From NCBI GenBank assembly GCA_030747075.1, contig JASLLL010000007.1:1-64000 (forward strand): a stretch of 64,000 bases of DNA, read 5' to 3'. Below the pieces are notes generated by a model. That model was not told where the DNA came from. It was given only the letters and a program-made list of their open reading frames with translations, and did not search any database. The stretch is from Gemmatimonadota bacterium (GTDB lineage Bacteria; ARS69). Positions 4,305 to 55,092 of this stretch are shown here, in pieces; position 1 is the stretch's first letter, and each line of letters begins with the position of its first letter. The position numbers were made by a program, and so were the translations under genes.

Positions 4305-5231
4305 TCAAGGGGAAAGGGTCCGCTCCGCCTCTGCGATCACGGCAAGGACCCATCGTGCAGTCTCCTCCAGAGCCAGCGGGGAGCAGTTTGCCGGGAGATC
4401 GTCCGTCGTGTGCCACGCGGGGTCCGCCAAATCCACCAGATCCAGTGCCGGGACCCCCGCACGGAGAAACGCGACATGATCGTCGTAGACCGGGCCACCC
4501 AGCGAATCCGCCATGACCGACACTCCGGCTTCCCGGCCGATCCTCCAGACCCACTCCACCAGCGCCCCGGCTGACGCGGCCGAAAGCGCCTCCCGGGGGA
4601 TTCGCGTGCCCGCACGACCGACCATGTCCACAATCAGCGCAAAGGCCGGTCGGTACGATGGGTGGTCACGCACAAACCCGGCGGACCCCAGCGCGAAAGT
4701 CTCCGCTTGGCCGTCGAGCCCGAGATCCTCTCCGTCAAAGAAGACCAGATCCACGCCGATCGAAGGCGGTTGGTCGGCCAACGCCCGGGCCACTTCCAGC
4801 AGTACCGCCGTCCCCGAAGCACCGTCATTCGCGCCCGGCACCGGCAGATGCCGACGCGCCGGATCTTCCTCGCGGTCCGCCCCGGGGCGTGTATCCCAAT
4901 GCGCTCCGAGTAGAATCCGAACGGGACTCTCGGGGCGGAAGACGCCGAGGATGTTCCGCAAGACGACCTCGGAGGAGTCCCAGGGAGAGATGATCTGAAA
5001 CGAATGGACGCGCACCACTTCCGCAGTGGCCTCCAGATGGCGGATGATGAGCGCCTCGGTCTCCCGGTGACCTGCGGTTCCGGGGACTCGCGGCCCTGCG
5101 GCCACCTGCGTGCGAACCAGAGCCAGGCAATCCTCTCCATCCACGACACGGGGCGGCGCATCTCCGCACCCCGTGCACAGGACGACCAGGGCCGTCCCCG
5201 CCGCTCTCCACGCTCGCTCGGGCACCTGCAT
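4305..5231 (-). CDS. M28-family zinc metallopeptidase / glutaminyl cyclase-like lipoprotein
   Basis: A 308-residue exported protein with a short hydrophobic leader ending in a lipobox-like LCTGC (Cys22), so probably membrane-anchored on the periplasmic side. The M28 zinc-ligand pattern is visible: GAHWDTRPG (His/Asp), GANDGASG (bridging Asp), FFDGEDLG (Glu pair), LIVDMVG (Asp) and the late WHTTDD (His). M28 covers aminopeptidases and glutaminyl-peptide cyclotransferases. The WHTTDDLPANCSP ending resembles the cyclotransferase-like branch. Some T9SS-bearing bacteria use such enzymes to make N-terminal pyroglutamate on exported proteins. Either activity is possible, and only the fold and the metal site are certain. 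Confidence 0.85.
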   Translation of the reverse strand: MQVPERAWRAAGTALVVLCTGCGDAPPRVVDGEDCLALVRTQVAAGPRVPGTAGHRETEALIIRHLEATAEVVRVHSFQIISPWDSSEVVLRNILGVFRPESPVRILLGAHWDTRPGADREEDPARRHLPVPGANDGASGTAVLLEVARALADQPPSIGVDLVFFDGEDLGLDGQAETFALGSAGFVRDHPSYRPAFALIVDMVGRAGTRIPREALSAASAGALVEWVWRIGREAGVSVMADSLGGPVYDDHVAFLRAGVPALDLVDLADPAWHTTDDLPANCSPLALEETARWVLAVIAEAERTLSP

Positions 5232-5282: not shown

Positions 5283-8200
5283 TCAGAACTTGATGAGTGC
5301 TTCCACCGCCACGCTGATGGAGGTGTCAGTGCGATCTCGCAGAAGATCCTCTGTGCGACTGTAGCTCAGGTCCAGACTCCCCTGAATCTTCCGCGAGAAG
5401 TTGTAGGTGGCCCGCGGCTTGATTCCCAGCGACTTCCGATGACTTCGCACGGTGGTCGTTGCCTCTCCGTCCGGTTGAGTCTGAGTCTCCTCCACCTTGT
5501 CCTCGCTGCGGTCAAAATCGAAGTTCAGCGTCAGATCGCTGCGAAAGCGAAGCCGCTTCCCGCCGAACAGGGAGAGTCCGCGCGGGGCGGAAAAGCTGTA
5601 TCGGGCGTTCATTCGGAACGCGTTGTTGGTGGTGCGCGTACTGGAGACCACCGAGTTGAACTCCGACTCGTCCAATGCCACCCCGCGATTCACCGTGAGC
5701 GTCGTGTTTACACCGCCCTTCCAGTTCGTGCTCCAGGAGACGAGTGGCGTGAAGTCCGATCGCGTGGCGTCGGAGTCGTACCACTTCGTCCCTTCAGGGA
5801 GCGGCGCCGCTTCATCGGAGATACGACCGCTGCGCTTCGACTCCCTCCGGAAGGACGAAGAGAGGTTGGACGAACGCGCCCATCTTTGCAGAAAGAACCG
5901 CTTCTCCAGACCGTCGATGCTGAGCGCAACATCCGGGAAGGTCACATCTTCCGTTCTTGTACGGGTCGCGTTGAGAACCTTGCGGGTCGTTCTCTTCGTG
6001 TAGTGCCAGTTCGTCACAATGTTAGAGGTCGGGGAGAAGGATGTGTCCAGCTTGCTGGAGCGGCTCCGATCCGTATTGTCCTCGATCAGACTGGCCCCCC
6101 CAATCTCGGGAAGGACCAAAAGCCCGGAATCGAACTCCGACAGCCCCATCTGATAGCCAAGGCCCGGGCTTGCTCCCACGCGGCTGAAGCGGGAGGAGCG
6201 CCGATCCGAATACGAGTACCGAATGTCCCCCACCATCCGGGCCACGCCGCGCGCGCCGTTCAGCACCTGCTTCCACGCGGGATCTCCTTGCTCCTCTTCC
6301 CCGGCCTCCTCGTCACCCGTCTCCTTGCCGGACCCGGAAACGGGTCTTCGCCGTCCGGTACTCCCCCCGGAAGGACTGCCGCCTCCCTTCGACCGGAAGA
6401 GTTGCCGGAGATTCAGGCTGCTTGAAATCTCCCTTGTACTTGCGTTCTGCACTCTTCTCAGGCGCAACTCCGTATCCGCCGCCTGGGCGCCCGGCCCCTG
6501 ATCCTCCTGATAGTTGGAGTCGTACGACATCACCGGCCGAAGCCACCGAACAAAACCCGGCCTCCAGCTGACCCGCATATTGTGATCCCGTCGGAGTTCC
6601 CTTCCGCCTGCCTGGAAACTCTCCACAAGCGACAGATCCTTCCGCAGATCCAGATCCTGCCGCTTGTTGAACGCAAACTGACTGTCGAAAGAGTTCGAGC
6701 GCAGAGGATCCCACTGGAATCCCAGGGATCCCTCCAGTAGGCGATTCCGAACCGGCGCACGCGGGGAGTACACGGCATTGCCCGTCGCCCCCTGCCGAAT
6801 ATCGCTCGACTCTGTGCCGTTGAGGCTCCCGTTGATCCCGAGTTTCAGCGTGGGAAAGTAGTTGAAGTCGAAGGTCTTCAGCAGGCGAATGGACCGGGCT
6901 CGCCCCGGAGTGAGGTTGTAGGTCGTCTGCCCGGTGGCTGTATGCCCCCGACTTGCCAGGAAGGGAGTGCGGTTCCTGCTGTTTGTGCGCGCATAGCTCA
7001 GACTCAGGTTGTCCAGCGTGTAGTGGATGAAGGGATTCGAGGATTGTCGCGTCTTTGCAATTCGAGCCGAGAAGGAGGACTTCCTTCGAACGGTCCTTGC
7101 GTTCATCTTGTCCTCATCGGAAATCAACTCGATGTCCGAGTTCGGAGAAAGAAGCGGCACCGACTCCGAGAAGTCGTACGACCCGCTGATGGGAAAGGAC
7201 AGACCTCTCCCGTCAATGAACTTGTTTAACTTGAGATCCCCCCGAGCATTCCAGGAAAACTCATCGCTCCCGTGTCGCTCGCCCTCGATCCTGCGAAACT
7301 CCGACCCAACTCGCCGGATTCCGCCGTCCAGAGTCAACAGGTCCGCCACTCGGGCGCTTCCGTGGAGCCTCGCCGCCGCACCACGCTTCTTCTTCACCGA
7401 GCGAAGACGAATCTCATCGAACCAGACCTCGCCGGAGACTTCCGGACGAGCCGGATCATCTCCACGCACGCCGACCGTCATGCGTCTCACACGCGTCAAC
7501 GACGGGGCCCCGTAGACGGACAATGTGTCTCCGTCCACGATCATCTCCCGGTATTCGACCACCGCACCCTCCACGGTCAGAGTGGTCTCCGGTGCGTCGA
7601 GTTTCAAGACGGCCAGTTCGTCCAACGGGATATTGACTTCCTGCCAGGAACTGTCGGGAACCGTCGCGAACTCATAGAAGTTCAGCGTGTCCGCTCCGAA
7701 TCGAAAGAAGAAGGTCCCTGTAGAGCCCTCCACCGGATCAAAGCCCGGCCGAACCGCTCCCGCGCGATCCCTTGCGCCATCCCGAAGATAGAAGCTCATG
7801 GTCTCGTACTGGGTGAAGTTGGTACTCGTTCCGTCGCCTGTATCCAGGATCTCCTTGTAGGCGCTCCCCTGTCTCCCCTCCGTCACGGATCCGGAGGGAA
7901 TCTCGCTGTATTGCACCACGAGGCTCTGTTCGCGCTTCTCTTCGTTGCTCTGGTCCTTGCCGGGATCGAAGGGCGGGAAGTAGTCGTCGTCTTCCTTGGT
8001 GTTCTTCACATTGATGAGGAACGATCCGGCATCCTCGGACTCCGGCACGGGTTCTACCGTGTCATTGGTGGCCATGGCTTCCTCCACCCATGCCGCCCCC
8101 ACGATCTTGATCGACGCCACGCGTGCCTTCACGCCGGCGTCTTCCGAAAGGCCCTCGAACCAGAGGCGCGCATACTTCACAGCCTTGCGTCGAACCACAC

Positions 8201-11200
8201 CGCCCACGGGCACTCCATCATCGATAGGAATCCGGTAGAGCCTCCAGTAATTGTCGGCCTCGCCAGTCACCTCGGAGTTCCGCTGGACCAGGTACGGGCT
8301 TCCCAGCGTGTCCGACAGATCGATCTCGAACGACAGGTACTTATTGTCTGTATCAAGGAAGTTGTCTCCGTCCGTGTCTTCCGTATCGAGACGGCTGTTA
8401 CCTTCCGTTCCGTTGATCTGCGTATAGTCCGGAGTGGAAGTTCGCTCAAAGAAGAAGTCGTCGTCTCCATCGTCCCCTTCCGACCCGCTACCGTCCGTCC
8501 CTTGAACATTGTCCAGCCCCAGATCCTCTCGACTGACCGTCAGCGATCCATCAAACGGATCAAAGTCCTCGGTGTCGAGAAAGCCCCGTCCCTTTTGAAG
8601 TCCCTCCGACTCCAGATAGTGGTCTTCGCTGATCTCCCCGATGTCGAATGTCATCACTCCTTCGTACCCGCCAAGATCGTCCACCCAGATCTCCACGAAC
8701 TTCTTCTCCGTGTAGTCCTCGCCTGTCATGGAGAGATTCCGCATGATGCCCACCCACGATGAGTCCGGGGACGCCGTCTCCCGCGTTCTGAACTCCAGAA
8801 TCTGGATAAAGTCCTGCCCTTCCCGTTCGTCCGCGACCTGCGGGTACACATCCTTTCGACGAACAACATTCTCGGGGTTGTACCAGTTGAAGACTGTCCT
8901 CGGCAGATACTCCATCCCCACCGGTTCCGACGCCGGATGCCATGTTCCCCGGGCAAGAGAGAGCTCCCGGCTGTCTTCCACTCCTTCCATGTCGTCGATG
9001 TAGATCTGGTTTTTCGTGTTTGGATTCGGCATGGAGAACGCCACTTCGCCCTGAAGCTGCACATCCGATTTGGCGTCTGTTCGAACCAGAGGAATGGCAT
9101 TCGCCAGCGAGGTGAGGAAGTCCGGCTCCTTCACCCACTGCCCGTAGAGATTCCCGACAAAGGTCCGTGTGGGTTCCTGCCCGAGCTTCGGGCGCTCCTC
9201 CGGAGTGGCTTTCGTGAAGAACAACAGGGACGAACTCAGGTGGGTGCGCGGGCCGAAGTTGTAGGTTCCCGACAGCCCCAGGAGTGACTCTTTCGCCTGC
9301 CCGAAGAGCGGGACAAACTCGAAGTCCACCGAGATCTCCGCGTCAGGAAGGCTGGCGTCCGCCGTTCGGAAGGTGAGAATGCCGTAGTCGTAGTCAATAT
9401 CGTAGTCGGAGCCGCGATTGAGGAGCCGACCGTTCAGGTGTACGCGCTCCGATCCTTCCAGGATGTTGAACCGGTTCAGGCTGTAGGTGGGGGTCGGCGT
9501 CGTGTACTTCGTCTCAATGTAGTAGCGATCCTGATTGTAGAGTTCATCCGGAGGAAGCGAGTAGAGCGCCCCGTTGTCTTCCGCCAGCGGAACACCCGGC
9601 TCCGAGGACCGCCCCGTGGATACCTGCGAAGGACTCACGATCACATTGATCGAGGAAGAGTCCGGCGCGAACGGCGTAATGTTGGGAAAGGTGATCGTCC
9701 CGGCTTCATAATCAACGAACTCCGGCTCGACGCGAAGATCCGGAATGTCATCCGCAAGGCCTCGGTAGTCGAGCCCCATGATCCTCACAAACTCCTGGTT
9801 ATTCGCCGCGTTGGCCTCGTCAATCTGAATGTCCTCGTCCGGTTCCCCGGCCGTGGCGCCCTTCCTTCGGATCACCAGTTCGAACCCTTCGGGCACGATA
9901 TTTCGCGCACCCAGGAAATAGATGTTCTTCTGCTCGTAAGCTCGGGCGCGGACGAATCCCTTCGCGTCGTCGTCCAGTTCCGACTGCGGAGGCCGCAAGA
10001 GCTTGAGGGAGATCGTGTCTCCCTCCGCAACGCTCAGGGCCCCCACGCTGTCTCCCGACGCCCGGACATAGTGCGCCGCCAATGCGTAGCGGTCATCCAG
10101 CGGACGCGTGAGGACAACATTCCCCGACTGACGGTCCACCTGATAATCCACATTCTCCTCCAGGCGCGTAAAGAACCCGGTGAAGTTCGCGGAAGTGGTA
10201 TCCACCACATCGATCCACGCATTCGCAATGAAGGTATTCGTGAAGTTGTTCTGGGCGTCCCGATCATCCATGAAGAGGTCAAAACCCTCTCCCCCGAGAG
10301 GCAGCACTGCCGCACCGTCGCCGGGGTCCGAGTTCATCGCCAGCACTTCCGGCGTGTCGATCCAAAAGTACTGCCGCTTGATGTAGTCGATGTCCCGCAC
10401 TGTGACCGAGTCTCTGCGGGCACGCCCGACAAAGGTCTGGCTGGCGGTCTTCCCTTCCTGCTTCGACGCAATGACCGTCAGGTTCAGCGGCCCCAGGCTG
10501 CCCTGGGCCTTCGCACCAAACAGCCCCTGTTGAGACTTTCGAAAGCTAAGAAACTCGGACCCGGGAAGAGAGAGATCCGTGTTGCCCATCTCAATCTTCT
10601 GGACGATTTCATCTTCGTCGCCGTCATAGCGAAGTTGAATCTTGTTGTCGAGATCGGTGCTGACCTCGCTGTCATGATTCACCAACACATGGATTTTCCG
10701 CCCAATCGTTCCGTCCAGATTCAGCTTGAGGTGCTGCTTCATGTCCAGATCCGGGAACGCGGACGGGTTCCCGGATTCGTAAGTCGGGCCGCCCTCAATG
10801 ATGTTGGAGGTGCCGGAGAATGTGATGCGCTCCGACCCGGTCAGGTTCAGGCGCGCGCCCTGTCCGATGATGTCTGCGAGCGCATCGGGGAACTCCACCG
10901 GAATGTCGATCGAGATGAGGCCCGCATGCTGATCTCCCCTTCTGGCGGAGGTCTCCCGGCGAAGCACATCCATCCACACCTCCCGGGCGGAGTGTACCGC
11001 CGCCGCGCCGATCATCGTCCGGAGATCCTCGACCCAGACCGGGGCCATGTCCACGGAGCCATATCGCCTGTACACCACCATGCGGCCGCCAAGAAGATCC
11101 AGTTCCGCTTCATCCCGGATGCGGGTGCTCTTGATCCGAAGGAGGCCTCCCCGCACGGGGGAATGCAGCGACGCGATGGGCTCGGGGCCCTGGACGCCCG

Positions 11201-11351
11201 GCGGCATCCAGAACTGCGTGCCTTCAATCCGTGACGACAGGAAGTCCGCTCGCGCGACCTGGGCAGATCCGGCAAACAGCACGCAGGTCCCCAGAAGAAG
11301 GATTCGCGTTCGGAATCCGGGCAGAAAGCGGGCCGCGAGGATCGTCATCAC
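5283..11351 (-). CDS. sprA: SprA/Sov-type T9SS outer-membrane translocon
   Basis: A 2022-residue outer-membrane protein of the SprA family, which in Flavobacteriia and Porphyromonas is the giant beta-barrel translocon of the type IX secretion system. There is a signal peptide (about residues 1-36, cutting near VARA). The SprA N-terminal hallmark follows at about 160-200 (IDIPVEFPDALADIIGQGA, then NLTGSERITFSGTS). Long alternating beta segments run to the C-terminus, which ends in aromatic Phe as outer-membrane barrels do. Its length is in the usual SprA range of about 2000-2500. It follows no coupled gene and is divergent from lptF. Its presence implies T9SS-like export in this organism, and PorV is encoded 38 kb away. 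Confidence 0.93.
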   Translation of the reverse strand: MMTILAARFLPGFRTRILLLGTCVLFAGSAQVARADFLSSRIEGTQFWMPPGVQGPEPIASLHSPVRGGLLRIKSTRIRDEAELDLLGGRMVVYRRYGSVDMAPVWVEDLRTMIGAAAVHSAREVWMDVLRRETSARRGDQHAGLISIDIPVEFPDALADIIGQGARLNLTGSERITFSGTSNIIEGGPTYESGNPSAFPDLDMKQHLKLNLDGTIGRKIHVLVNHDSEVSTDLDNKIQLRYDGDEDEIVQKIEMGNTDLSLPGSEFLSFRKSQQGLFGAKAQGSLGPLNLTVIASKQEGKTASQTFVGRARRDSVTVRDIDYIKRQYFWIDTPEVLAMNSDPGDGAAVLPLGGEGFDLFMDDRDAQNNFTNTFIANAWIDVVDTTSANFTGFFTRLEENVDYQVDRQSGNVVLTRPLDDRYALAAHYVRASGDSVGALSVAEGDTISLKLLRPPQSELDDDAKGFVRARAYEQKNIYFLGARNIVPEGFELVIRRKGATAGEPDEDIQIDEANAANNQEFVRIMGLDYRGLADDIPDLRVEPEFVDYEAGTITFPNITPFAPDSSSINVIVSPSQVSTGRSSEPGVPLAEDNGALYSLPPDELYNQDRYYIETKYTTPTPTYSLNRFNILEGSERVHLNGRLLNRGSDYDIDYDYGILTFRTADASLPDAEISVDFEFVPLFGQAKESLLGLSGTYNFGPRTHLSSSLLFFTKATPEERPKLGQEPTRTFVGNLYGQWVKEPDFLTSLANAIPLVRTDAKSDVQLQGEVAFSMPNPNTKNQIYIDDMEGVEDSRELSLARGTWHPASEPVGMEYLPRTVFNWYNPENVVRRKDVYPQVADEREGQDFIQILEFRTRETASPDSSWVGIMRNLSMTGEDYTEKKFVEIWVDDLGGYEGVMTFDIGEISEDHYLESEGLQKGRGFLDTEDFDPFDGSLTVSREDLGLDNVQGTDGSGSEGDDGDDDFFFERTSTPDYTQINGTEGNSRLDTEDTDGDNFLDTDNKYLSFEIDLSDTLGSPYLVQRNSEVTGEADNYWRLYRIPIDDGVPVGGVVRRKAVKYARLWFEGLSEDAGVKARVASIKIVGAAWVEEAMATNDTVEPVPESEDAGSFLINVKNTKEDDDYFPPFDPGKDQSNEEKREQSLVVQYSEIPSGSVTEGRQGSAYKEILDTGDGTSTNFTQYETMSFYLRDGARDRAGAVRPGFDPVEGSTGTFFFRFGADTLNFYEFATVPDSSWQEVNIPLDELAVLKLDAPETTLTVEGAVVEYREMIVDGDTLSVYGAPSLTRVRRMTVGVRGDDPARPEVSGEVWFDEIRLRSVKKKRGAAARLHGSARVADLLTLDGGIRRVGSEFRRIEGERHGSDEFSWNARGDLKLNKFIDGRGLSFPISGSYDFSESVPLLSPNSDIELISDEDKMNARTVRRKSSFSARIAKTRQSSNPFIHYTLDNLSLSYARTNSRNRTPFLASRGHTATGQTTYNLTPGRARSIRLLKTFDFNYFPTLKLGINGSLNGTESSDIRQGATGNAVYSPRAPVRNRLLEGSLGFQWDPLRSNSFDSQFAFNKRQDLDLRKDLSLVESFQAGGRELRRDHNMRVSWRPGFVRWLRPVMSYDSNYQEDQGPGAQAADTELRLRRVQNASTREISSSLNLRQLFRSKGGGSPSGGSTGRRRPVSGSGKETGDEEAGEEEQGDPAWKQVLNGARGVARMVGDIRYSYSDRRSSRFSRVGASPGLGYQMGLSEFDSGLLVLPEIGGASLIEDNTDRSRSSKLDTSFSPTSNIVTNWHYTKRTTRKVLNATRTRTEDVTFPDVALSIDGLEKRFFLQRWARSSNLSSSFRRESKRSGRISDEAAPLPEGTKWYDSDATRSDFTPLVSWSTNWKGGVNTTLTVNRGVALDESEFNSVVSSTRTTNNAFRMNARYSFSAPRGLSLFGGKRLRFRSDLTLNFDFDRSEDKVEETQTQPDGEATTTVRSHRKSLGIKPRATYNFSRKIQGSLDLSYSRTEDLLRDRTDTSISVAVEALIKF

Positions 11352-30158: not shown

Positions 30159-31712
30159 CTACTCGCCGACATCCTGATTCGCGAAGAAGACCAGCACGAG
30201 TCCCGTGACAATTCCACCGACGATGGCAGGTTCCACCAGCGGATGGGATTTCCAGCTCTTCCCGTTCTTTCCATCCAGCCCCAATCTCGGCGGATAACCC
30301 GTCGATTCAGGAACGGATGCCTCGGCCACTGTCTCCGACCGGGTACCGGCACCGCCGGCTGTCCAGAACGAGTCTCCCTCTCCCGCGGCAGTCAGGTGGA
30401 GCGTAAGCCCTACCGACGCAGTCCGGTCGAAGGAACGGGGCCCGATCCATCGGGCTCTTCGTGCATGGGTCTCCAGATATTCCGATTGAACGACTTCAAC
30501 CTCGATCAGCGCCGACCCGGAATCCGGCAATGAGCCGCTTGTCTTCAGAGACTCCAGCAAGAGTGCCTTGGTCTCCAGATCCACGTCATCCAGGATCTCA
30601 GGGAGCGCGTCACTTTTCTTCACTTCCAGCCCGCGAGCTTCGAGGGCCGTTGCCAGGGCGTCGGTCAGAAGAGACCCCGCCCGATGGTTCGTCATGGGCC
30701 TCACAAGGACAGCCCCCACATCCTCAGGAAATGCACTCAGCGCATCTCCCACCGCCACCGCCGCCACCTCACTGAAATACTCCACACGACTCAGAACTCC
30801 CGTCTCCCGGGCGACACTTCCAGCAGGGGTCCAGCGCACCCCAAACCGATGGCTGGGGGTCACCGCACCATTCCGAAACGCGTAGTCCACTTCCAGCCCC
30901 GGACGAACCAGGAACCCGGCACCCAAGGCCCACGGGTCCACCCCTCCATCCGGTTCCTCTCCGACGCGAGCTCCCGCTCGCAGCGAGGCCCGCTTCCCGA
31001 CACCATACTCCACACCGAAGCCCGTGGAGGAACCGAAACCGTTTCTCCACTCCGACTCCACACCAAATCGAAAATCTCCCACCGTGCCCGCCACGCCTGT
31101 GGTGAAGCGCGTGGGAAGTGGTTCCTCCGCCCCCTCACCATAACCGATCGCCGACCCGAAATCCCGGACTCCGACGGAAAGATTCCACCCCGGCACGAAC
31201 CGATACAGGAGTCCTCCCCCGGCCACCCAGCCGCTCGCGGTCTCTCCCGCCAATGCGCTTCGTACCAGCCCGAGCGAGGCTCCGGCATCCAGACGCCCCC
31301 GAAGTGTCCGGGCATAGCCCGCCTCGACCGCAAGATCTGTTTGCCCCACTGCGGCTTCGGCACCCGCCGTGTTGTCGAACTCCGCCACCGACAGCGACCT
31401 CACGCCAAGAGCCCCGGTGCCTCCGCCCATCGGACGAGCGGCTGCGAGATACCCGGAAGTGGCCGCTCCCATCCAGCGAAACAGCGATGCCGACACGGTC
31501 GCGGAGGTCTCCGATGCGAGAAGCGCCGGGTTCCAGCTGAGGGCGTCCGCGCCGGTCGCGAGCGTCGCGCCTGTCCCGCCCAGGGCCTCGGTTCGCGCCC
31601 CCGCTCCCAGCTCCAGAAAGTGGAAGCCCGTGGAGTTCGGCTCGGCCGCCGCTCCCGGGGCGCACAGCAGTAGCGCGGCCAGGCAGAAGCTTGCGATTCG
31701 CAGAATCATCAC
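30159..31712 (-). CDS. PorV/PorQ-like outer-membrane barrel with C-terminal CsgG/LpoB-like domain
   Basis: A 517-residue exported protein with a signal peptide (about 1-23). The N-terminal 280 residues resemble the PorV/PorQ (UPF0164) barrel family. The hallmark is FLELGAGARTEALGGTGATL followed by ALSWNPALLA, then short alternating beta strands with GVRDFGSA. From about 310 the protein changes to an alpha/beta domain (VGAVLVRPMTNHRAGSLLTD, ALEARGLEVKKSDALP, IEVEVVQSEYLE, then LTAAGEGDSFWTAG). This resembles the CsgG/LpoB/FlgT-type envelope domain. A hydrophobic helix near 495-512 closes the protein. The combination is unusual and the second domain is assigned by pattern only. The start overlaps the previous gene (ATGA). 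Confidence 0.75.
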   Translation of the reverse strand: MMILRIASFCLAALLLCAPGAAAEPNSTGFHFLELGAGARTEALGGTGATLATGADALSWNPALLASETSATVSASLFRWMGAATSGYLAAARPMGGGTGALGVRSLSVAEFDNTAGAEAAVGQTDLAVEAGYARTLRGRLDAGASLGLVRSALAGETASGWVAGGGLLYRFVPGWNLSVGVRDFGSAIGYGEGAEEPLPTRFTTGVAGTVGDFRFGVESEWRNGFGSSTGFGVEYGVGKRASLRAGARVGEEPDGGVDPWALGAGFLVRPGLEVDYAFRNGAVTPSHRFGVRWTPAGSVARETGVLSRVEYFSEVAAVAVGDALSAFPEDVGAVLVRPMTNHRAGSLLTDALATALEARGLEVKKSDALPEILDDVDLETKALLLESLKTSGSLPDSGSALIEVEVVQSEYLETHARRARWIGPRSFDRTASVGLTLHLTAAGEGDSFWTAGGAGTRSETVAEASVPESTGYPPRLGLDGKNGKSWKSHPLVEPAIVGGIVTGLVLVFFANQDVGE

Positions 31713-33298
31713 AAGGCTGCCCCTCTCACCACCGCGACCTTGCGCACCTCTTCACGCTCCTCTCCCAGAATGCGGAAGATGTGAACGCCCGAGGCCGCCA
31801 CGCCGCCGCCGTTCGTCGTCCCGTCCCAGGAGACCGAGCCGGTCCCCTCCAGACGGCGCACGAGGCGACCCGCCAGATTGTAGACTTCCACCACCAGGTC
31901 TCCACTACCTCCGGGAAGCGTGATCGTTACGGACTCGGCGGCACCCGGATCGAAGCGATTGCAGTCGATGGAAGCCGGCGCATCCGCAGACGGCCCGTCC
32001 AGAAGTGTCAGCGTCACGGTTCCCGTCCCCTGGACAATCCCCGTGGAGCCGGTCACCACCACCGGGTAGCTGCCCGCCATCTGAAGGTTGGCTGCAGTCA
32101 CGGTGTACTGAATGAGGTACGCACCCCCGCCTTCATTCGTCACGGTCTCTGTCCCGGACAAGTACCCTGTATCGACGGTGGTAAAGTCGACAGTCAGCGT
32201 GAGGTCGTCCCGGTTCCACCAGCTGCGGATGGTCAAGTCTTCGCCCGGTCCCGCGCCCGCCTCCCCGGTCACCACCACCAGCGAGTCCAGCACTGGAAGA
32301 ATGGGATCGAATGCCAACCGGAGCGTCTTTTCCGTGATCAGACCCACCGCATCCGTTGCGCGCACCACCAGATCCCGAGCAAAGGGAATGCCGGTTGTGT
32401 CATTCACGACGACAAGCCAAGCTACCGAGTCTGCGGTGCCATCCGTCCAGTCGGGCGCCCCAAACGATGACAGGGAATCCCGCTGAACTTCCACGAAGGC
32501 GACGCGGTCGTTGTCCAGCGCGTATCCCGAGAGCGTATCCGGGAATGCATCGGTCTGGAGCGTGTCCGCGTCCGCGAACAGCGTGGGATCCGTCACATCC
32601 AGCGTCACAAACTGCGAGACGGAGTCGGCGTTCCCCGCGAGATCCGACACATACGCGAAAATCTCGTACACGCCGGAAGGGGCCGTCGCCGCGAGCGTAA
32701 GGGAACCGTCCCAGCGAACCTCAAACAAACCCGTGCCCTCCTGCACCGCGACCGTGTCCACCACAGTTCCGGCCTGTCGCACCAGGATCATACTGGCCGT
32801 CGACGAGTCCGTGGAGGTCACCACACACGGGATGACCAGTTCATGATCCGGCGGCGGAGACATCGGGCTGAAGGGGTTCGGCCCAATCGATCCGAACGCC
32901 AGCGAGGGAGTGGACGAATCCGCAACCACCACCGCGGAAGCCATGGTTGCGTCTATCCCTTCCGAGGCCACGATGTCAAAACGGTATTCTCCGTCCGCCA
33001 GCAACCCGGGCGCCCATGCCACATGAGTGGTTTCGCCCGAGGCCACCGTGGCCAGCGGGAAAAGGAGCGTCAGAAGCGAGTCCGGATCCACCGAAGAGAC
33101 GGAGACCACTACGGAGAGTGAGTCCGAGCTTCCAGTGGGGACAAAAGACACGACCGTCGAATCCGTCAGGCCATCTCCATCGGGAGTGAAAGGGTTCGGC
33201 CGGACGCCGAGTCCCTCGATCGTGGGGGATACAGCCCCGGCAAACGCGGGAAGCAGGACGAAAGCCAGAATGCCCATGCCCAGTGCCCCGGCACGCAT
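31709..33298 (-). CDS. Secreted protein with FlgD-like / T9SS-type C-terminal domain
   Basis: A 529-residue exported protein of unknown function. A signal peptide (about 1-22, ending GAVS) is followed by RPNPFTPDGDGLTD, a short motif common at the start of FlgD-like Ig domains. Several beta-sandwich stretches follow. The C-terminus LVVEVYNLAGRLVRRLEG with SGVHIFRIL is typical of FlgD-like or T9SS sorting-type domains. It is probably a T9SS-like cargo or a cell-surface protein. The ATG at 33298 begins the hydrophobic leader. The frame remains open for 178 codons upstream, but that part is the Ser/Arg-rich complement of the plus-strand gene at 33372. It is translationally coupled to the PorV/Q-like gene. 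Confidence 0.8.
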   Translation of the reverse strand: MRAGALGMGILAFVLLPAFAGAVSPTIEGLGVRPNPFTPDGDGLTDSTVVSFVPTGSSDSLSVVVSVSSVDPDSLLTLLFPLATVASGETTHVAWAPGLLADGEYRFDIVASEGIDATMASAVVVADSSTPSLAFGSIGPNPFSPMSPPPDHELVIPCVVTSTDSSTASMILVRQAGTVVDTVAVQEGTGLFEVRWDGSLTLAATAPSGVYEIFAYVSDLAGNADSVSQFVTLDVTDPTLFADADTLQTDAFPDTLSGYALDNDRVAFVEVQRDSLSSFGAPDWTDGTADSVAWLVVVNDTTGIPFARDLVVRATDAVGLITEKTLRLAFDPILPVLDSLVVVTGEAGAGPGEDLTIRSWWNRDDLTLTVDFTTVDTGYLSGTETVTNEGGGAYLIQYTVTAANLQMAGSYPVVVTGSTGIVQGTGTVTLTLLDGPSADAPASIDCNRFDPGAAESVTITLPGGSGDLVVEVYNLAGRLVRRLEGTGSVSWDGTTNGGGVAASGVHIFRILGEEREEVRKVAVVRGAAL

Positions 33299-33371
33299 AT
33301 CAAGTCCGCACCGCCGGAAGTCGATGGGTAGGGGGATCCGAGAGACTGACGAACGAAAGGACGGACGGCTC

Positions 33372-33809
33372 ATGCCCGACACCCGCGAAGTCGTGCACCA
33401 GATGTTCCTGAATCTCGTGAAGATTCGGCTGGACCCCGACACGATAGACCGGATGGTCCCCGTGGTGGACGGCCTCATGGAACGACTGCGCGGAAGCCTC
33501 GATCTTGAGTCCGATCCCGACTGGAATCGACTGAGGATTGCGCTGGCCGGCATGCTGGCCCACGGCTGGGCCATGGGGATGAACCCCTTCAACTCCCCGA
33601 ACCAGCACTCCGATGGCGAAGCCGTGGAAGTGCGTGTATCCCGCGACATCCTGATTCCCATGGAAGTGCTGAAGGCACTCCGATATGTCAAGAAGGACTC
33701 ACTGGGACGCGTCGAGAAAGCCCTCTTTGAGCCGGGTACGGAAGTGCGCGCTCGTGAGCAAATTGACATCATCCTTCGGGAAATCGAGAAGAAGCACTGG
33801 AAGGAGTGA
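33372..33809 (+). CDS. Hypothetical helical protein
   Basis: A 145-residue protein that I do not recognise. It is mostly helical and charged, has no signal peptide or membrane segment, and contains VEVRVSRDILIPMEVLKALR followed by DSLGRVEKALFEPGTEV and a Lys/Glu-rich end. The codon usage, with GC at third positions, and the AAGGACGG upstream of the ATG support a real gene. It is the only plus-strand gene between 14 and 34 kb other than none; it is divergent from the secreted FlgD-like protein and convergent with the pilin-like gene. No function is proposed. Confidence 0.65.
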   Translation: MPDTREVVHQMFLNLVKIRLDPDTIDRMVPVVDGLMERLRGSLDLESDPDWNRLRIALAGMLAHGWAMGMNPFNSPNQHSDGEAVEVRVSRDILIPMEVLKALRYVKKDSLGRVEKALFEPGTEVRAREQIDIILREIEKKHWKE

Positions 33810-33828
33810 AGCTTCCTCCGGAACGCCC

Positions 33829-34203
33829 TCACCAGCTTGGATCCCCGGTGTCGACTTTGAATCCCGTCCCGCGTGCCGCGATCAGGTAGTTCTGCCCATC
33901 CACCGCAAGGAAGAACGGCAGATCCGTGATCGGGCAGACGAAGGACATTCCCTCCGAATCCTTCTCAAGCAGTGGACGAAGATCGTTCAGTTTCGTCGCA
34001 AAAGCCCCGTTGATGATCAGGTACTGCTGTTGTGCCTGGGAGAGCGCGAGAAGGCGCGTCTGACACTCCGACTCCAGGTTGGCCTTGCGTGTCCGAATGC
34101 CCATGGTAGTCAGGAGGAACCCCAGCAGGATCAGGGCGAGAACCCCGACCAGCGCATCGTAAGCGACGAAACGACGCTTCGGTCGTACAGGTTCTTCGGT
34201 CAT
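33829..34203 (-). CDS. Pseudopilin-like single-TM protein
   Basis: A 124-residue protein with a short cytoplasmic basic segment, one membrane helix (about 17-37, ALVGVLALILLGFLL) and a periplasmic domain. Residues after the helix (LESECQTRLLALSQAQQQYLI, then LNDLRPLL and VCPITDLPFFL) resemble the body of type II/IV pseudopilins. However, no G/A-FTLxE prepilin cleavage motif is present before the helix, so this is a pilin-like protein rather than a processed pilin. A GGGGAGGAG ribosome-binding site precedes ATG 34203, and a good promoter lies upstream. Confidence 0.6.
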   Translation of the reverse strand: MTEEPVRPKRRFVAYDALVGVLALILLGFLLTTMGIRTRKANLESECQTRLLALSQAQQQYLIINGAFATKLNDLRPLLEKDSEGMSFVCPITDLPFFLAVDGQNYLIAARGTGFKVDTGDPSW

Positions 34204-40672: not shown

Positions 40673-41877
40673 CTCCTCCGCGGAGAACGATACTCCCAGA
40701 TTTCCACCGGGTGCCCGCCCATCGTCTGCCCTTCCCGGGTGATGCGTTCGTCCGGTTCTCCGTACTTCACAAGAATGCTCCCGCGATCCGTATTCCATCC
40801 CGTACGCTCCCCCCACTCCACAAAAAGGTCGTTCGCAATGGCGATACGCCGGAACACCTCGTCGCGAAACTCGTTCTCCGGTGTGGACGGCAGCGGATCC
40901 TTCGCCATCCAGTACGCTTCGAGAAGTTCCGAGCATTCCGCCCTCTCTCCGGTTCGAATCGCGTGGGCCGTGTCCATGTCGCCGAGAATCATGAGAAGCC
41001 GGACAGCATCCTCGGGATACCCCCCCGGCCAACCCGGTCCCGGAACCACCATCAGCAGTGCTTCGGTGCGCTCGGTGACGCGACTCGTCTGCTCCGTCAC
41101 TTCCACGATCAGACGGTTCGTTCCCGGCACCAGTCGCGCCGTAGGAACCCGAACATCCAGCGACGCTTGCGTGGCGCCCACGGCGGGGATGACCGTGGTG
41201 TCTCCCTCCGCGAGATTCCCTCGCCCGACTGCCGAGAAGCCCCACCGGACTCGCCATACAGGACTTTGGCCGGGATCTCCCGCGATGTCGATGCTCCAGA
41301 GATACGCCTCTTCCCCCATCCGCACTTCGCGCCGGATGTCCGACGCACGCACACCATCCGGTGTGCGCACGAATCCCGGGGCGCTCACTCGCAGAGGGCC
41401 CGTCCTCTTGCGAACACGAACCTCCTCTTCGATGCGGCACGAGGATCCGCTGCCCCGATCCGTCACCGTCACCCGAACACGGCACTTTCCCGGGGACACC
41501 TCGAACGAGTAGTCTCCCCGGGCTTCCAAAGCACGGCTGAAGGTGTCCTGCCGATTCGCGGCCCGCGCCTCCGACTCCAGCACGGTGCCCGCAAGCTGGC
41601 GGCCCTTTCTCTCGACCACCACCACGACATCGTACCGTGCAAGCTGCCCTCCCCCATCCACTGGAGCGAAGAGCAGGCCCAGGTACGGGATGGCCCAGCG
41701 GACCTCCACCGTACCGTCGGCATGAATGCCCGGGCGGGTACTCACTTCCAGAGCGAATGCGGGATCGTCCTCAACGAAGAGTGAAGTGCTGGTTTGAGGA
41801 ATCCCCCGACAGGGAAAGAGAACAAGGAGCGCAATGAGGACACCTCGGCAGGCGCGCCTCCAGCACTTCACAATCAT
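40612..41877 (-). CDS. GWxTD-domain exported protein (first copy)
   Basis: A 421-residue exported protein. A signal peptide (about 1-27) is followed by Ig-like beta strands. The C-terminal domain carries [20 protein letters not shown] (about residues 355-375), the GWxTD motif that names the family, then [16 protein letters not shown] and [10 protein letters not shown]. The family is widespread in FCB-type genomes but has no established function. The start overlaps the ATPase stop by four bases. It lies between an ABC ATPase and an oligopeptide-binding protein, which suggests a role with transport or the outer-membrane channel. That is inference. Confidence 0.85.
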
Positions 41878-44810: not shown

Positions 44811-45422
44811 CTACTTGTTGAAGGTGAAGCTCAGCGGGATCACGATCGTGGCTTTCACGGGGTTGCCACTCTGCTCCGCAGGAATGAAGCGCCACTTCTT
44901 GACCGCTCGAATCGCGGCATCGTTGAAGATCTCTGCATCGGACCTGACGACCGTCACATGCATGACCTTGCCTCGCTCATCAATCGTGACCTTCAGCAGA
45001 ACCTCACCCTCAATCCCCGCGCGACGCGCCAGATCCGGATACTCCGGGATTACGCGCTTCTTCACCTTGGGCATCTTGTCAAAAACATAGAACTCTTGCG
45101 ACGCAGGCGGAGGAGGAGGCGGAGGAGGAAGATCATCAAGGTCCAGCGCGGTGTCCTCAATCGTCTCTTCTTCGTCCACGCTCTCGTCAATGGCCTCGAC
45201 CGGAATCTTCGGGCGCTGGATCTCCTTAGGCGGCGGCGGGATCTCGATCTCCGGAGGGAGCTCGATAACCTCCAGCTCCTCAGTCACCATCCTGTAGGGA
45301 GTGATGTTGATTTCACCCCAGACAGCGAACACAAGCAGGTGCATGCCCAGCGAGATCGCCAGCGCGACATCAAAGTACTTGCGGTACTGATCCTTGAACC
45401 GGACATTGGCGGTCGCGGACAC
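44811..45422 (-). CDS. tonB: Energy transducer TonB
   Basis: Links the ExbB-ExbD motor to outer-membrane receptors. The 203-residue protein has an N-terminal TM helix (about 21-36, LAISLGMHLLVFAVWG), a Pro/Glu-rich periplasmic spacer (IELPPEIEIPPPPKEIQRP and PPPPPPPP), and a C-terminal domain VIPEYPDLARRAGIEGEVLL with DAAIRAVKKWRFIPA. GTG 45422 is chosen because AAGGAAGGGGG precedes it; a TTG at 45446 is an alternative. It ends the exbB-exbD-exbD-tonB operon. Confidence 0.92.
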   Translation of the reverse strand: MSATANVRFKDQYRKYFDVALAISLGMHLLVFAVWGEINITPYRMVTEELEVIELPPEIEIPPPPKEIQRPKIPVEAIDESVDEEETIEDTALDLDDLPPPPPPPPASQEFYVFDKMPKVKKRVIPEYPDLARRAGIEGEVLLKVTIDERGKVMHVTVVRSDAEIFNDAAIRAVKKWRFIPAEQSGNPVKATIVIPLSFTFNK

Positions 45423-45426
45423 GGAA

Positions 45427-45843
45427 TCAGCCCCCTTCCTTCTCAAAATCGGTCGTGAAGGAGACCCGAGTGGCGTTGGCCAGCTTCAGTTGCTCCATCA
45501 CCTGGTCCACTACCCGAAAGGGAGTCTGCTTGTCGGTATTGAACGCCACGATGAGCGCGGGATTCGCCACGAGCTTCATATAGACGAGCCCTTCCACCTG
45601 ATCCACGGCAACGATCTTGTCATTGATGCTGATCTGTGAAGCCCGGTCGATCCATATGTGAGAAACCCTCTCGCGCGGCACCTTCACCGCGGCTTCCGCC
45701 TTGGGCATCTCGACAGGCAAACCATCCTCCAGCTTGAAGATGGTGGTGACCATGAAGAACACCAGCAGGAGAAAGGCAATGTCCGCCATCGAGGAGGTCG
45801 GGATGTTCTGGCCGACATTGGACTTCCTCGAAAACTTGGCCAT
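45427..45843 (-). CDS. exbD: ExbD/TolR-family protein (second copy)
   Basis: A 138-residue inner-membrane protein. It has an N-terminal TM helix (SMADIAFLLLVFFMVTTIF; the conserved Asp in DIAFLLL is the proton-pathway residue) and a periplasmic domain. Paired with another ExbD just upstream (TAATG overlap) and TonB just downstream. Divergence from the first copy suggests the two form a heteromeric stator. Confidence 0.92.
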   Translation of the reverse strand: MAKFSRKSNVGQNIPTSSMADIAFLLLVFFMVTTIFKLEDGLPVEMPKAEAAVKVPRERVSHIWIDRASQISINDKIVAVDQVEGLVYMKLVANPALIVAFNTDKQTPFRVVDQVMEQLKLANATRVSFTTDFEKEGG

Positions 45844-46259
45844 TATTGCACCACTTCCATTCCCTTGATGGAGATCTTCGCCGCATCCGCAAGGCGGAGT
45901 TCATCCAGAATGTCCACCATGGTGCCATAGAATGCGTCGGGGTGAATCTCCAGCTGAATGACGAGCTTTTCATTCTCCCCGATGCGTCTTCGCACCTCCG
46001 CTTCGATGCCCGAAACCGGAATCCCCGCGCCGTCCAGATAGATCAGATTGTTGGCCTGAGCTTTGATCTTCAGGATGTTCTTCTGGGAGATGGTCGCCGT
46101 CTCCGAAGCCTGACCGGGAAGCTGCATGGGCAGCCCCTGTTCGACATTGAAGATGGTACTCACCAGGAAGAAAATCAGCAGAAGGAACGCGATGTCGGAC
46201 ATCGACGCGGTCGAGATGTCGTCATCCGTTCGCTTCCGTCTTTTGAACTTCACCGCCAT
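45843..46259 (-). CDS. exbD: ExbD/TolR-family protein (first copy)
   Basis: A 138-residue paralogue with SMSDIAFLLLIFFLVSTIF at about 19-37, including the conserved Asp. The N-terminus is basic (KFKRRKR). It sits 60 bases after exbB. The tandem ExbD arrangement is common in Bacteroidota-like and Fibrobacterota-like lineages. Confidence 0.92.
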   Translation of the reverse strand: MAVKFKRRKRTDDDISTASMSDIAFLLLIFFLVSTIFNVEQGLPMQLPGQASETATISQKNILKIKAQANNLIYLDGAGIPVSGIEAEVRRRIGENEKLVIQLEIHPDAFYGTMVDILDELRLADAAKISIKGMEVVQ

Positions 46260-46319
46260 GACGCGTGCTCCTCGTGGCGGGGGGAGGCAACGCCCCGCAC
46301 CCCGCCGAAGGCTGTCGGA

Positions 46320-47210
46320 CTACTCGGCAGCTGACCGCTCCAGCCCGAGATCCACCAGTGTGTCCACCAGATCCGCAGAGGTCTCCTGCATCTCGATCAC
46401 GAAGCGATCAATCTGCGAGACGAAGTAGTTGTGGAAGATGGACATCGGGATCGCGATCACGAGCCCGGCCATGGTCGTCAGGAGTGCTTCGGAAATCCCG
46501 CTGGCCACAAGCTTCGCGTTGACCTGATCCGCCGCGGCAATCGCGTCGAATGCAGAGACCATCCCCGAGACCGTCCCGAGGAAACCGAGAAGCGGCGCGA
46601 CATTCGCGATGGTTCCCAAGGCCAGCAACCCTCTTTCCAGGAAGGAGAGTTCGATCACACCGGCGCTCTCGATGGCCTTCTCAGTGGCTTCCACACTCAC
46701 GGTGGCTCGCCGAAGACCCGCGTGCAAAATGGCGGGGATCGGCCCACGCGTCTTCTCGCAAAGCGCAGCAGCGGCCTCCACGCCCTCGGTGCGCAAAGTG
46801 GTGATCACTCCGTTCATGAGAGTGCGGATGTTGGTCCGCGCTCGGCTGAGCGTCCAGAACCGCTCAATGATGAAAGCCACACCTGCAATCAGCAGGATCA
46901 GGAGCGGCCACATGAACTTGCCGCCCTTCTGGAAGTACTCTACCGCCCCGCTTCCCGCGAACTTCTCCAGGAACCCCGGGCTGCCGCCGACTTCTTCGAC
47001 CACATCCAGATCATCAAAGCCGCTGCCCCACGCCAGAGAATCAACCGCAGCCGAATCTACCGCAGCGGAGTCCACAGGCGCGGCTGCGAGAGTCGCGCTG
47101 TCGCCGGGAGCGTCGGCGCCACCCTCCTGGGCGACGACCGTAACGCCGGTGATCCCGCAAAGCGCGAGGGCCGCACCGATCGAGAGGATCTGCTTCCGCA
47201 CCTTTCGCAT
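46320..47210 (-). CDS. exbB: ExbB/TolQ/MotA-family proton channel protein with long leader
   Basis: A 296-residue inner-membrane protein. The MotA/TolQ/ExbB core (about 120-290) has WPLLILLIAGVAFIIERFW, GLLALGTIANVAPLLGFLGTV and LLTTMAGLVIAIPMSIFHNY. Before it lies a signal-like helix (about 7-28) and a periplasmic Ala/Asp-rich region with repeated AAVDS units (VDSAAVDSAAVDS). The start ATG 47210 has AAGGAG about nine bases upstream. A consensus-like promoter lies 140 bases upstream. Confidence 0.9.
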   Translation of the reverse strand: MRKVRKQILSIGAALALCGITGVTVVAQEGGADAPGDSATLAAAPVDSAAVDSAAVDSLAWGSGFDDLDVVEEVGGSPGFLEKFAGSGAVEYFQKGGKFMWPLLILLIAGVAFIIERFWTLSRARTNIRTLMNGVITTLRTEGVEAAAALCEKTRGPIPAILHAGLRRATVSVEATEKAIESAGVIELSFLERGLLALGTIANVAPLLGFLGTVSGMVSAFDAIAAADQVNAKLVASGISEALLTTMAGLVIAIPMSIFHNYFVSQIDRFVIEMQETSADLVDTLVDLGLERSAAE

Positions 47211-47354
47211 TTCGATGGTTCTCCTTCGACATGGAACCAGGGCTGACGAGAGGATCTCGGAGAATACCCGGGTCCGCATCATTTGCTCCGTTTCCCAAAA
47301 CCGTTCCCGGAGCCGCTGAGTGTTTTCAAGCCACCAAGACTAAATGGGTTAGGC

Positions 47355-47384
47355 ATCTTATTGCCCGATTTCTCAGAGTGTCAA
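47355..47384 (-). promoter_or_regulatory. Sigma-70 promoter of the exbB-exbD-exbD-tonB operon
   Basis: On the minus strand TTGACA (47384-47379), an 18-base spacer and TAAGAT (47360-47355). The transcript would begin near 47348, giving a leader of about 138 bases before the exbB ATG at 47210. The region sits in the only AT-richer stretch nearby. Confidence 0.6.
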
Positions 47385-47417
47385 CCCGGATTTTGGAGAA
47401 CGCGCCTCAAAGGCCCG

Positions 47418-48971
47418 TCAGTGCCCGGGACCTCCCTCGCTGGACACAAGATGGAAATCACCGCTCCCGAATTCGTCCGCGAATATGAACTTCAACCCTC
47501 GGTGCGCACGCTGATCCACGGTTCGGCGGTCTCGCAGTTCCTGCCCGGGACCATCGTAGATCCAGACGATGAGTTCCTTGCTCTTGATCGTGGTCCCCCC
47601 CCTCTGGGAGCTGAGGGATCGGGAAAGCTCATCCGAAGGATCTCCCCGGCCACGAAACTCCGCGGAGGGCAGCGACTGCAGTGCGATCCTCTCCCCCGGA
47701 TTCGTCACCTGCTCGCGAAGGCCGTCTTCCCGAAATCCTGATGACGAGTATTCGGTGATCCGATCATCCGGCTCCCCATACCGGACAAAGACACGGCCCC
47801 GGTCGGTGAGTATTCCCCGCTCCAGGGTCGAACTGAAGTTGCGGTCCGCAAAGTCGATCCGGCTGCGGAACTGCATGCGGATTTCGTTCTCCGGAGTTCC
47901 CGGCGACGGATCCAACCCTCTCCAGAACTCGTTCAGAAAGTACTCCCTTCCCGCAGGAGACAACCCCTCATACTGCCGCAGTTCTCCCGGATACAGGATC
48001 AGCGTCAGCTCCCGGAGGACTTCCTCTTCCTCGCGGGTCCAGGACTCGGCCCTCCACATCACCTCGAACGGACTCCGGGCGGATGCAATCCTGCCGGAGT
48101 CGGGGTCGCGGAGCGTCAGTTCCGCCTCATAGAGGCCCGCCGGGGTGATCGCAAGCAGGTCCAGTTCCTCCATGACAATCCACGCGCCCGACGACGGCCG
48201 AACACGACGCGTTCTCGCCAGCAATTCCTGCCCCGCCGCATCCAGAATCCGGATGCGCACAATGAAGCCCGGAGACTCCGAAGACGGTTCGGGAGAGTAG
48301 ACCTCCGCAAAGAGGCTGAGTCTTGGAGCAAAAAGACCGAACCGCCCGGACGGGCTTGGCTCCAGGTTCGTCCCGTGCCGCCAGGCCCCGGAGTCTACGG
48401 TATCCAGTCGGCGAACCGTTCCCAGAACCAAGCTGGAGAGAGCCAGGCTCTCCTTTCCTGGATCCGGTACTGAAAACCGACTCTCAAACTGGCCGGTTCG
48501 GTGCCCGCCTCCACGAATCATGTAGAGAAGACCCGGCTTGGAGGAAGCATAGTCCTCCATCCGGATCCGCAGGGAATACTCTCCGGGCTCCAGAAGAGCG
48601 CGGTCAATGATCGTCTGCAGAATCCCCCGGTCGGTCGTGTCCAGTCTCTCGGAAGCCACCGGGCAGAGCTTCGACTCTCTGCTCAGGACCGTGGTGCCGT
48701 CGTGGTCAAGAACCGCGATCGTCAGTCGGAGGTCGGCCTCATGGGTGGAGCCTGTCTGGCGAAAGGTGATCTGATCGTTGCTGACAGATATGTGAAACTC
48801 CGCCTCCACGAGTTCGCCGGCGACGCGAAACAGGGCCGTTCGCGCATAGAAGGCAATCTCACCGGAGGAGGCACTCCCCGACACTCCCGCCGCGGCCGGG
48901 AGGGCGAAATGCCCAACGGCCAGCAACAGAACCGGACTGCATTTCAGGAGAGAAATGGGGCGCGCGCGCAT
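47418..48971 (-). CDS. GWxTD-domain exported protein (second copy)
   Basis: A 517-residue exported protein. A signal peptide (about 1-28) precedes beta-sandwich regions. The C-terminal domain matches the first copy (RGILTDRGRVFVRYGEPDDRI, later FIFADEFGSGDF), but the strict GW is replaced (GILTD instead of GWNTD). The shared parts are RYGEPD, TPENE at about 370, and the final FxFADxxGxGDF. It follows PorV by 61 bases and ends before the exbB promoter. No function is known. Confidence 0.78.
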   Translation of the reverse strand: MRARPISLLKCSPVLLLAVGHFALPAAAGVSGSASSGEIAFYARTALFRVAGELVEAEFHISVSNDQITFRQTGSTHEADLRLTIAVLDHDGTTVLSRESKLCPVASERLDTTDRGILQTIIDRALLEPGEYSLRIRMEDYASSKPGLLYMIRGGGHRTGQFESRFSVPDPGKESLALSSLVLGTVRRLDTVDSGAWRHGTNLEPSPSGRFGLFAPRLSLFAEVYSPEPSSESPGFIVRIRILDAAGQELLARTRRVRPSSGAWIVMEELDLLAITPAGLYEAELTLRDPDSGRIASARSPFEVMWRAESWTREEEEVLRELTLILYPGELRQYEGLSPAGREYFLNEFWRGLDPSPGTPENEIRMQFRSRIDFADRNFSSTLERGILTDRGRVFVRYGEPDDRITEYSSSGFREDGLREQVTNPGERIALQSLPSAEFRGRGDPSDELSRSLSSQRGGTTIKSKELIVWIYDGPGQELRDRRTVDQRAHRGLKFIFADEFGSGDFHLVSSEGGPGH

Positions 48972-49032
48972 CGTTCACATGACTCCGAACTCTGGCACAT
49001 CCCCCGGGTGACCGCACCGGGCCAACCTGGGG

Positions 49033-49998
49033 TCAGAAGCGAAGTTCTGCCGAGACCTTGTGGGTTCCCACCAGAAACTTCATGTCCGAGTAGGCGTAGT
49101 CCACCCGCATCCATGACGCCGAACCGGTAGGGAACTCCACGCCGAACCCACCCGCGAGACCCTCCTCGTCACGATTGTAGCGATAGCCGCCACGGATCTG
49201 CAGCGTGACATTGGGTTCGAAGGCTTTCAGCGTGTATTCTGCTCCGACGCTCGCCCTTTCCGCGTTGTCGGACGGGTGATCGAACTCCGCCGCCGCCAGA
49301 AGGTTGTGATTCGCACTGGAGTAGACATCCATCGCCGTGCCCACGCGGAACATCGTGGGAAGCGGGAAGTCCTGTTCGAGGAACCGGAGAGACGGCCCCA
49401 GGTTCTGGATGGCCATTCCGATCCGGATGGTCTTGTAGTCTGTGAAATAGAGCGTCCCAAGGTCCACGGCCACGCCGTCCGCATTGGCATCGGCGAGCCC
49501 CATGTGAATGTACTTGGCCGTCAGGCCAAAGGAGAACCGGTCGATGAGATTGCGCGCCCAGGTCAACGCCAGGTTGAAGTCACCGGCATCGAAGTTCCGG
49601 CCCGTTCCCTCCGGACTGTATGCGGTGCGAATGGCCATGGGGTCCATCTGCAGAACCGTCGAACTGAACGCGAAGGCGCCGGGAAGGCCGTGGTAAGTGA
49701 ATGCATAGCCGACAAACTCGTGGGAAATGTCCGCGGGCCAGGAACTATGGTTCAGCGAAACACGACTGGTCCCGTCGCGCGTGATTCGAGCCACGCCGGC
49801 AGGGTTCCAGAAAATGCAACTGGCGTCGTCCGCCACCGCGACGAAGGTCTCCCCCATCCCAACAGCCCGGCCGCCGACACCTATCTTCAAGAACTGGGCC
49901 CCTGCTGTACCCACCTTCTTGAAGATCTTGGCCGCATCCGCCGAAGGGGCGGACAGAATGGCCACTGCGGCAATCGCCACACACAGGCGCGTCTTCAA
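49033..49998 (-). CDS. porV: PorV-like T9SS outer-membrane protein
   Basis: A 321-residue outer-membrane barrel of the PorV (LptO) family. In T9SS it shuttles cargo from the translocon to the attachment complex. Visible hallmarks are a signal peptide (about 1-22), FLKIGVGGRAVGMGETFVAV, FWNPAGVAR, further short beta strands, and a C-terminal KVSAELRF with terminal Phe. TTG 49998 is chosen because GGGAGG precedes it; the frame extends upstream without a leader. It follows the large secreted protein by 76 bases. Confidence 0.87.
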   Translation of the reverse strand: MKTRLCVAIAAVAILSAPSADAAKIFKKVGTAGAQFLKIGVGGRAVGMGETFVAVADDASCIFWNPAGVARITRDGTSRVSLNHSSWPADISHEFVGYAFTYHGLPGAFAFSSTVLQMDPMAIRTAYSPEGTGRNFDAGDFNLALTWARNLIDRFSFGLTAKYIHMGLADANADGVAVDLGTLYFTDYKTIRIGMAIQNLGPSLRFLEQDFPLPTMFRVGTAMDVYSSANHNLLAAAEFDHPSDNAERASVGAEYTLKAFEPNVTLQIRGGYRYNRDEEGLAGGFGVEFPTGSASWMRVDYAYSDMKFLVGTHKVSAELRF

Positions 49999-50074
49999 GA
50001 TGAAACCTCCCTTACCGGTCGACCCGGAACAGTTCCCACATTCGGGGGAACACCGTCCACAATCCGCGAACAAG

Positions 50075-52297: not shown

Positions 52298-52301
52298 CAG
52301 A

Positions 52302-55040: not shown

Positions 55041-55092
55041 CGGGTCACCCTTCTCGCACGGCGAAGGCCGGGGAAACATGCCGGACTACGGA

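Follow-up and report, generated by a model that had tools for sequence, protein, structure and literature searches.

The gene of a SprA-like protein on a Gemmatimonadota contig, of which 64,000 nucleotides were analysed (the window), raises the question of how much of a type 9 secretion system (T9SS), and which source of energy, accompanies this translocon outside the Bacteroidota. A survey of 2016 reported T9SS in Bacteroidetes only, in the genomes of that time (PMC4793230). SprA has been described as FCB-specific (PMC12611786), T9SS in Gemmatimonadetes, Cloacimonadota and Fibrobacterota has been mentioned as possible (PMC11285876), and the present case resembles the SprA/T9SS of other FCB phyla in these latter two reports in that the same translocon occurs outside the Bacteroidota. 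Since such occurrences are already in the literature, the phylum range alone is not new. As to energy, GldLM has been described as the source which drives the translocon (PMC10994853, PMC8986121).

The SprA N-terminal pattern which the first-pass annotation had recognised in a frame of 2022 residues indeed belongs to a full-length SprA. The frame is single and free of stops, its score of 578.7 bits against TIGR04189 clearly exceeds the cut-off of 200 with matched stretches spanning model positions 9 to 2306, PF14349 (SprA_N) is matched with 55.6 bits, and phmmer relates the protein to the solved SprA of Flavobacterium johnsoniae (6h3i/6h3j; E 5e-43 to 7e-43). The listed start codon is GTG, while a later ATG opens a signal-peptide-like sequence. 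An M28 peptidase gene like the one directly downstream lies beside sprA at loci L034, L039, L041, L047, L048, L072, L079, L090, L104 and L109. This adjacency, which spans at least three lineages and comprises an Eisenbacteria locus and Gemmatimonadota loci, also occurs in genomes without PorU and C-terminal sorting domains (CTDs) and was not seen in the three Bacteroidota loci checked. A candidate for a second SprA on contig C14 of the same genome was rejected as it turned out to be merely a segment of about 50 SprA residues within a 1228-residue outer-membrane-type protein (G000:C14:28811-32494; L163:6811-10494), which adjoins a BamA/TamA-like protein. Segments of this kind are also present in G002-G004.

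Table 1. Features of the window, all on the reverse strand, and SprA loci of compared genomes without C25 peptidase or CTD matches.
Feature	Position or locus	Strand	Evidence
M28-family peptidase, directly downstream of sprA	4305..5231	-	PF04389 111.5 bits
sprA/sov, outer-membrane T9SS translocon barrel	5283..11351	-	2022 aa; TIGR04189, PF14349, PDB 6h3i
Second PorV/PorQ-family protein, overlaps end of cargo gene 31709-33832	30159..31712	-	NF033709 113.9 bits (cut-off 90)
Secreted protein, C-terminal FlgD_ig/type A-like sorting domain, candidate cargo	31709..33832	-	PF13860 45.7 bits; TIGR04183 E 0.0029
TonB force transducer	44811..45446	-	PF03544 79.3 bits
ExbD 2	45430..45900	-	PF02472 74.9 bits
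ExbD 1	45846..46319	-	PF02472 75.2 bits
ExbB/TolQ-type proton channel	46320..47282	-	PF01618 105.7 bits
GWxTD-domain protein of the cluster	47418..48971	-	TIGR04514 72.6 bits
PorV/PorQ-family outer-membrane protein, paralogue; candidate dedicated shuttle/anchor for adjacent cargo	49033..50073	-	NF033709
Secreted protein, C-terminal type A-like sorting domain, candidate cargo	50075..52363	-	TIGR04183 E 0.0024; fold
TonB-dependent outer-membrane transporter: CarboxypepD_reg, Plug, beta-barrel	52302..55079	-	PF13620, PF07715, PF25183
SprA loci of nine Gemmatimonadota genomes without C25 or CTD match	L041, L044, L047, L048, L072, L079, L090, L104, L109		

The source genome is a draft of 2.67 Mb in 61 contigs (100% complete, 0.96% contaminated). 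Its phylum was sampled as a single family of five genomes, M3-44_Bin_119, M3-22_Bin_282 and 'Gemmatimonadota bacterium DHS20C21' being among the other members; SprA is present in all five and scores above the cut-off in four. In a SprA tree of 32 rows the window sequence clusters with its same-family relatives (support 100), this group adjoins the Eisenbacteria with weak support (87), and the Bacteroidota form a single clade on a long branch (support 100), while the deeper branching order is unsure owing to long branches. SprA thus sorts by lineage, and the tree shows no sign of a transfer from the Bacteroidota. The position of the window SprA outside the Bacteroidota clade agrees with the non-Bacteroidota host presumed at first pass and likewise contradicts contamination by Bacteroidota DNA, which is ruled out by the order sprA-M28-rimP-nusA-infB being the same as in M3-44_Bin_119 and at the Eisenbacteria locus. 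SprA was also observed in MAGs labelled Armatimonadota (L040) and Elusimicrobia (L100); the former sequence clusters with Cloacimonadota (support 100), and its label may be wrong.

Further components of the outer-membrane machinery are encoded elsewhere in the genome. Contig C14 carries PorU (NF033707, 541.9 bits compared to an equivalog cut-off of 420) and, directly downstream, the canonical porV, whose product reaches 195.5 bits against the PorV/PorQ family profile NF033709 (cut-off 90) and, across its full length, 139.5 bits against the PorV equivalog, which is under the cut-off of 250. Family membership and synteny, rather than its equivalog score, mark this protein as the predicted PorV shuttle. 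Proximity of porU and porV is also found in G001-G004, in G007 and in the Bacteroidota, and C14 additionally encodes a CTD-bearing relative of T9SS-dependent M6-like proteins. The PorV homologue which the first-pass annotation had placed at 49033 in the window proved to be a member of the family (NF033709, 194.2 bits, cut-off 90) but not the canonical PorV, which is ruled out by its paralogue-level equivalog score (80.8 bits, far below 250) and by the location of porU-porV elsewhere. Genome-wide, ten C25 peptidase matches, which are matches rather than verified genes, and ten PorV-family matches were obtained. According to a local profile applied to the fetched stretches, a CTD gene lies beside four of seven PorV-family genes, a proportion which is suggestive only as the two window pairs it includes were the starting point. 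In F. johnsoniae a single PorV serves all type A CTDs, while type B CTDs are known to have dedicated shuttles together with PorP/SprF proteins (PMC12618676). In contrast to that single PorV, the family is expanded here, several members being encoded beside a cargo gene.

The profile of type A CTDs, TIGR04183, produces 95 matches in the source genome, again not verified as genes. Both proteins of the window in which C-terminal FlgD-like or T9SS-like domains had been noticed do carry such domains, as both match TIGR04183 weakly, the protein at 31709-33832 matches PF13860 and that at 50075-52363 is supported by its fold. The predicted CTD of the latter is of modest confidence (mean pLDDT 67). Its best match in a fold search, and the sole one below 1e-3, is PorZ (5m11, E 2.9e-5), and the top eight include the RemA CTD (8gl6), NucA (8glk), the RemZ CTD and PorU (6za2), the matched structures of RemA, NucA and RemZ originating from translocon complexes. 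The flagellar hook cap ranks 23rd, below the T9SS CTDs, whereby the reading of these domains as flagellar FlgD only is ruled out for 50075-52363. This protein ends in the motif GKFAVIR, whose near-terminal lysine is kept in most homologues. The gene at 31709-33832 probably starts near 33298, where it had been placed earlier; it is matched by a custom CTD profile among whose seeds the same sequence is found.

The motor presents a different picture. We compared 23 non-Bacteroidota genomes with SprA, which represent about nine lineages, with six Bacteroidota controls, using the profiles of GldL, GldM and GldN. GldL and GldM are matched in none of the 23 genomes compared to all six controls, and GldN in none compared to five of six; even at E 1e-3 no match to any of the three appears in the 23 genomes. 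Were the genomes independent, a contrast of 0/23 to 6/6 would arise by chance about 2 times in a million; they are not, but about nine lineages are represented among them. For the source genome this means that neither the GldL/GldM (PorL/PorM) proton motor nor GldN/PorN of the PorK/PorN ring is found by profile, and the first-pass remark that the window holds no PorL/M gene extends to the whole genome. The 13 genomes with C25 matches, partial ones included (G000-G008, G010, G011, G013, G014), all contain CTDs, and TIGR04183 is matched in 14, the additional one being the Elusimicrobia-labelled G020, in which no C25 match was found. Among the remaining nine, which belong to one Gemmatimonadota clade (G009, G012, G015-G019, G021, G022), no C25 peptidase, type A CTD or GldL, GldM or GldN match was detected, and their SprA genes are long and open save one which is cut by a contig end. 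The idea raised at first pass of a wider phylum range with the same core holds for the outer-membrane half, i.e. SprA, PorU, PorV and the CTD, but not for GldL, GldM and GldN. A report of missing motor genes in a non-Bacteroidota T9SS was not found in the open-licence literature searched, so that the absent power unit, rather than the phylum range, is apparently what is new.

Taken together, we consider it likely, with a probability of roughly 0.7, that the genome, including the window, codes for a type 9 translocon which does without the known power unit. SprA, PorU with the adjacent PorV and about 95 type A CTD matches are present; the absence of the motor we infer from missing profile matches. 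Compared to the T9SS of F. johnsoniae and Porphyromonas gingivalis, the system would be alike in SprA (Sov), PorV beside PorU, the PorU sortase and type A CTD cargo, and unlike in that GldL, GldM and GldN (PorL, PorM and PorN) are undetected. By analogy to this homologous system, cargo would cross the inner membrane via Sec, fold in the periplasm and enter SprA, with PorV recognising the CTD; cargo and PorV would then leave the barrel sideways, and PorU would process the cargo. Some cargo may instead use dedicated PorV paralogues encoded alongside. With no recognisable GldLM, the energy would have to come from elsewhere; Tol-Pal and the Ton complex which the window encodes together with cargo and a PorV paralogue are the candidates that can be recognised here.

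This Ton complex forms part of a run of genes (44811-55079) which comprises ExbB-ExbD-ExbD-TonB, a GWxTD protein, the PorV paralogue, CTD cargo and the TonB-dependent transporter. The run is also present in four relatives, in some of them partially or split across contigs. Two GWxTD-domain proteins (40612-41877 and 47418-48971) flank the Ton/ABC-transporter stretch, one of which recurs in the cluster of the relatives. We lean slightly towards a role of this cluster in nutrient uptake, in which the transporter would act with a T9SS-exported surface partner held by its own PorV-family protein, much as SusC acts with SusD. A profile of the N-terminal part of the cargo matches 148 of 297 Bacteroidota genomes, and in 16 of 20 Bacteroidota cargo loci (L276-L295) a transporter and a PorV paralogue are nearby, this PorV being a distinct subfamily which no named NCBIfam equivalog covers. 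Uniqueness of the cluster to motorless genomes is hence ruled out for the triad of transporter, cargo and PorV; because it also occurs in the Bacteroidota loci, the triad is most simply taken as an FCB-wide unit, putatively an uptake complex. The CarboxypepD_reg and Plug domains of the transporter, which resemble those of SusC-type importers, point in the same direction, although the partner in this candidate complex is a CTD protein, no SusD relative being found by profile. Uptake is compatible with a motorless translocon, and Ton-driven uptake is more ordinary than Ton-driven secretion.

Less favourable to a motorless translocon would be a GldLM-type motor which is present but too diverged for profiles built on Bacteroidota sequences, a reading we regard as unlikely. 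Even within the Bacteroidota the short proteins GldL and GldN obtain lower scores (113-249 and 159-271 bits), and in the Flavobacterium control, where the position of GldL is known, the general MotA/TolQ/ExbB profile PF01618 gave no match there. This profile detects two proteins in the source genome, TolQ in the Tol-Pal operon (contig C6) and the ExbB of the window; as it misses GldL in the control, an unknown motor could escape this count of two as well. Against divergence stands the joint absence of three separate components from 23 genomes, even at the permissive threshold. Where present outside the Bacteroidota, the best C25 match reaches 223-266 bits compared to 334-361 in the five intact controls, and the best PorV-family match in C25-bearing genomes about 170-312 bits compared to 411-454 in the controls, which amounts to roughly 40-75% of the Bacteroidota scores. 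Since PorV and C25 score this strongly in these lineages, similarly conserved motor genes should have been seen. The absence nevertheless is one by profile, and the non-Bacteroidota genomes compared are MAGs.

That type 9 secretion is driven by the ExbB-ExbD-ExbD-TonB complex of the window in place of GldLM, be it directly or via the linked transporter, appears quite doubtful to us. The complex is one of the two recognisable proton-channel motors of the genome and is clustered with CTD cargo and a PorV paralogue, and whole or partial linkage of this kind is found in several phyla (G001-G006, G008, G013 and G014, all without detectable GldLM). ExbB-ExbD-ExbD-TonB lies beside the transporter, cargo and/or PorV paralogue in G005, G006, G008, G013 (Cloacimonadota) and G014, while in Eisenbacteria G007 the Ton half and the transporter/cargo/PorV half are apart; as the Ton-linked loci were found via PorV-ExbB proximity and ExbB, their frequency is biased upward. 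A precedent is provided by Myxococcus xanthus, where Oar with ExbB, ExbD and TonB is needed for the secretion of PopC (PMC6434023). In both loci the gene of a TonB-dependent transporter is clustered with exbB, a pair of exbD genes and tonB; unlike the Oar-TonOar locus, the window adds T9SS-type cargo and a PorV-family gene, and secretion by its transporter is only putative. Several observations speak against a Ton drive: there is no physical link to SprA, no linkage of the Ton genes was found at the inspected ExbB loci of G010, G011 and G020, and ExbB, ExbD and TonB are missing within the inspected stretch from all 20 Bacteroidota cargo loci, including the 16 with the triad. Ton linkage is the sole difference between motorless genomes and Bacteroidota in this comparison, whose sample is small and was chosen differently on either side. 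Most simply, the Ton genes are there for the adjacent TonB-dependent transporter. The general proposal that outside the Bacteroidota a TonB-ExbBD complex encoded with cargo and PorV paralogues powers type 9 secretion, with the GldLM rotary motor as a Bacteroidota addition, is rather improbable. Finally, that SprA is a retained barrel with another role is suggested by the nine Gemmatimonadota genomes which keep it without any C25 or CTD match, yet this is very hard to maintain for the source genome, which has PorV, about 95 CTD matches and a PorU scoring above its equivalog cut-off.

For the type 9 translocon without its known power unit, the simplest evolutionary account would be that SprA, PorV, PorU and the CTD signal form a shared core of the FCB group, and that GldKLMN is either an addition made in the Bacteroidota or a unit which survives there only. 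If genomes with a channel, a sortase and about a hundred tagged proteins do manage without GldLM, then either the translocon can be powered by some different force transducer or there is a motor that has escaped recognition. Either answer would bear on the mechanism of the channel and on how the rotary motor came to join it, and the present set of genomes makes the question of the motor directly testable.
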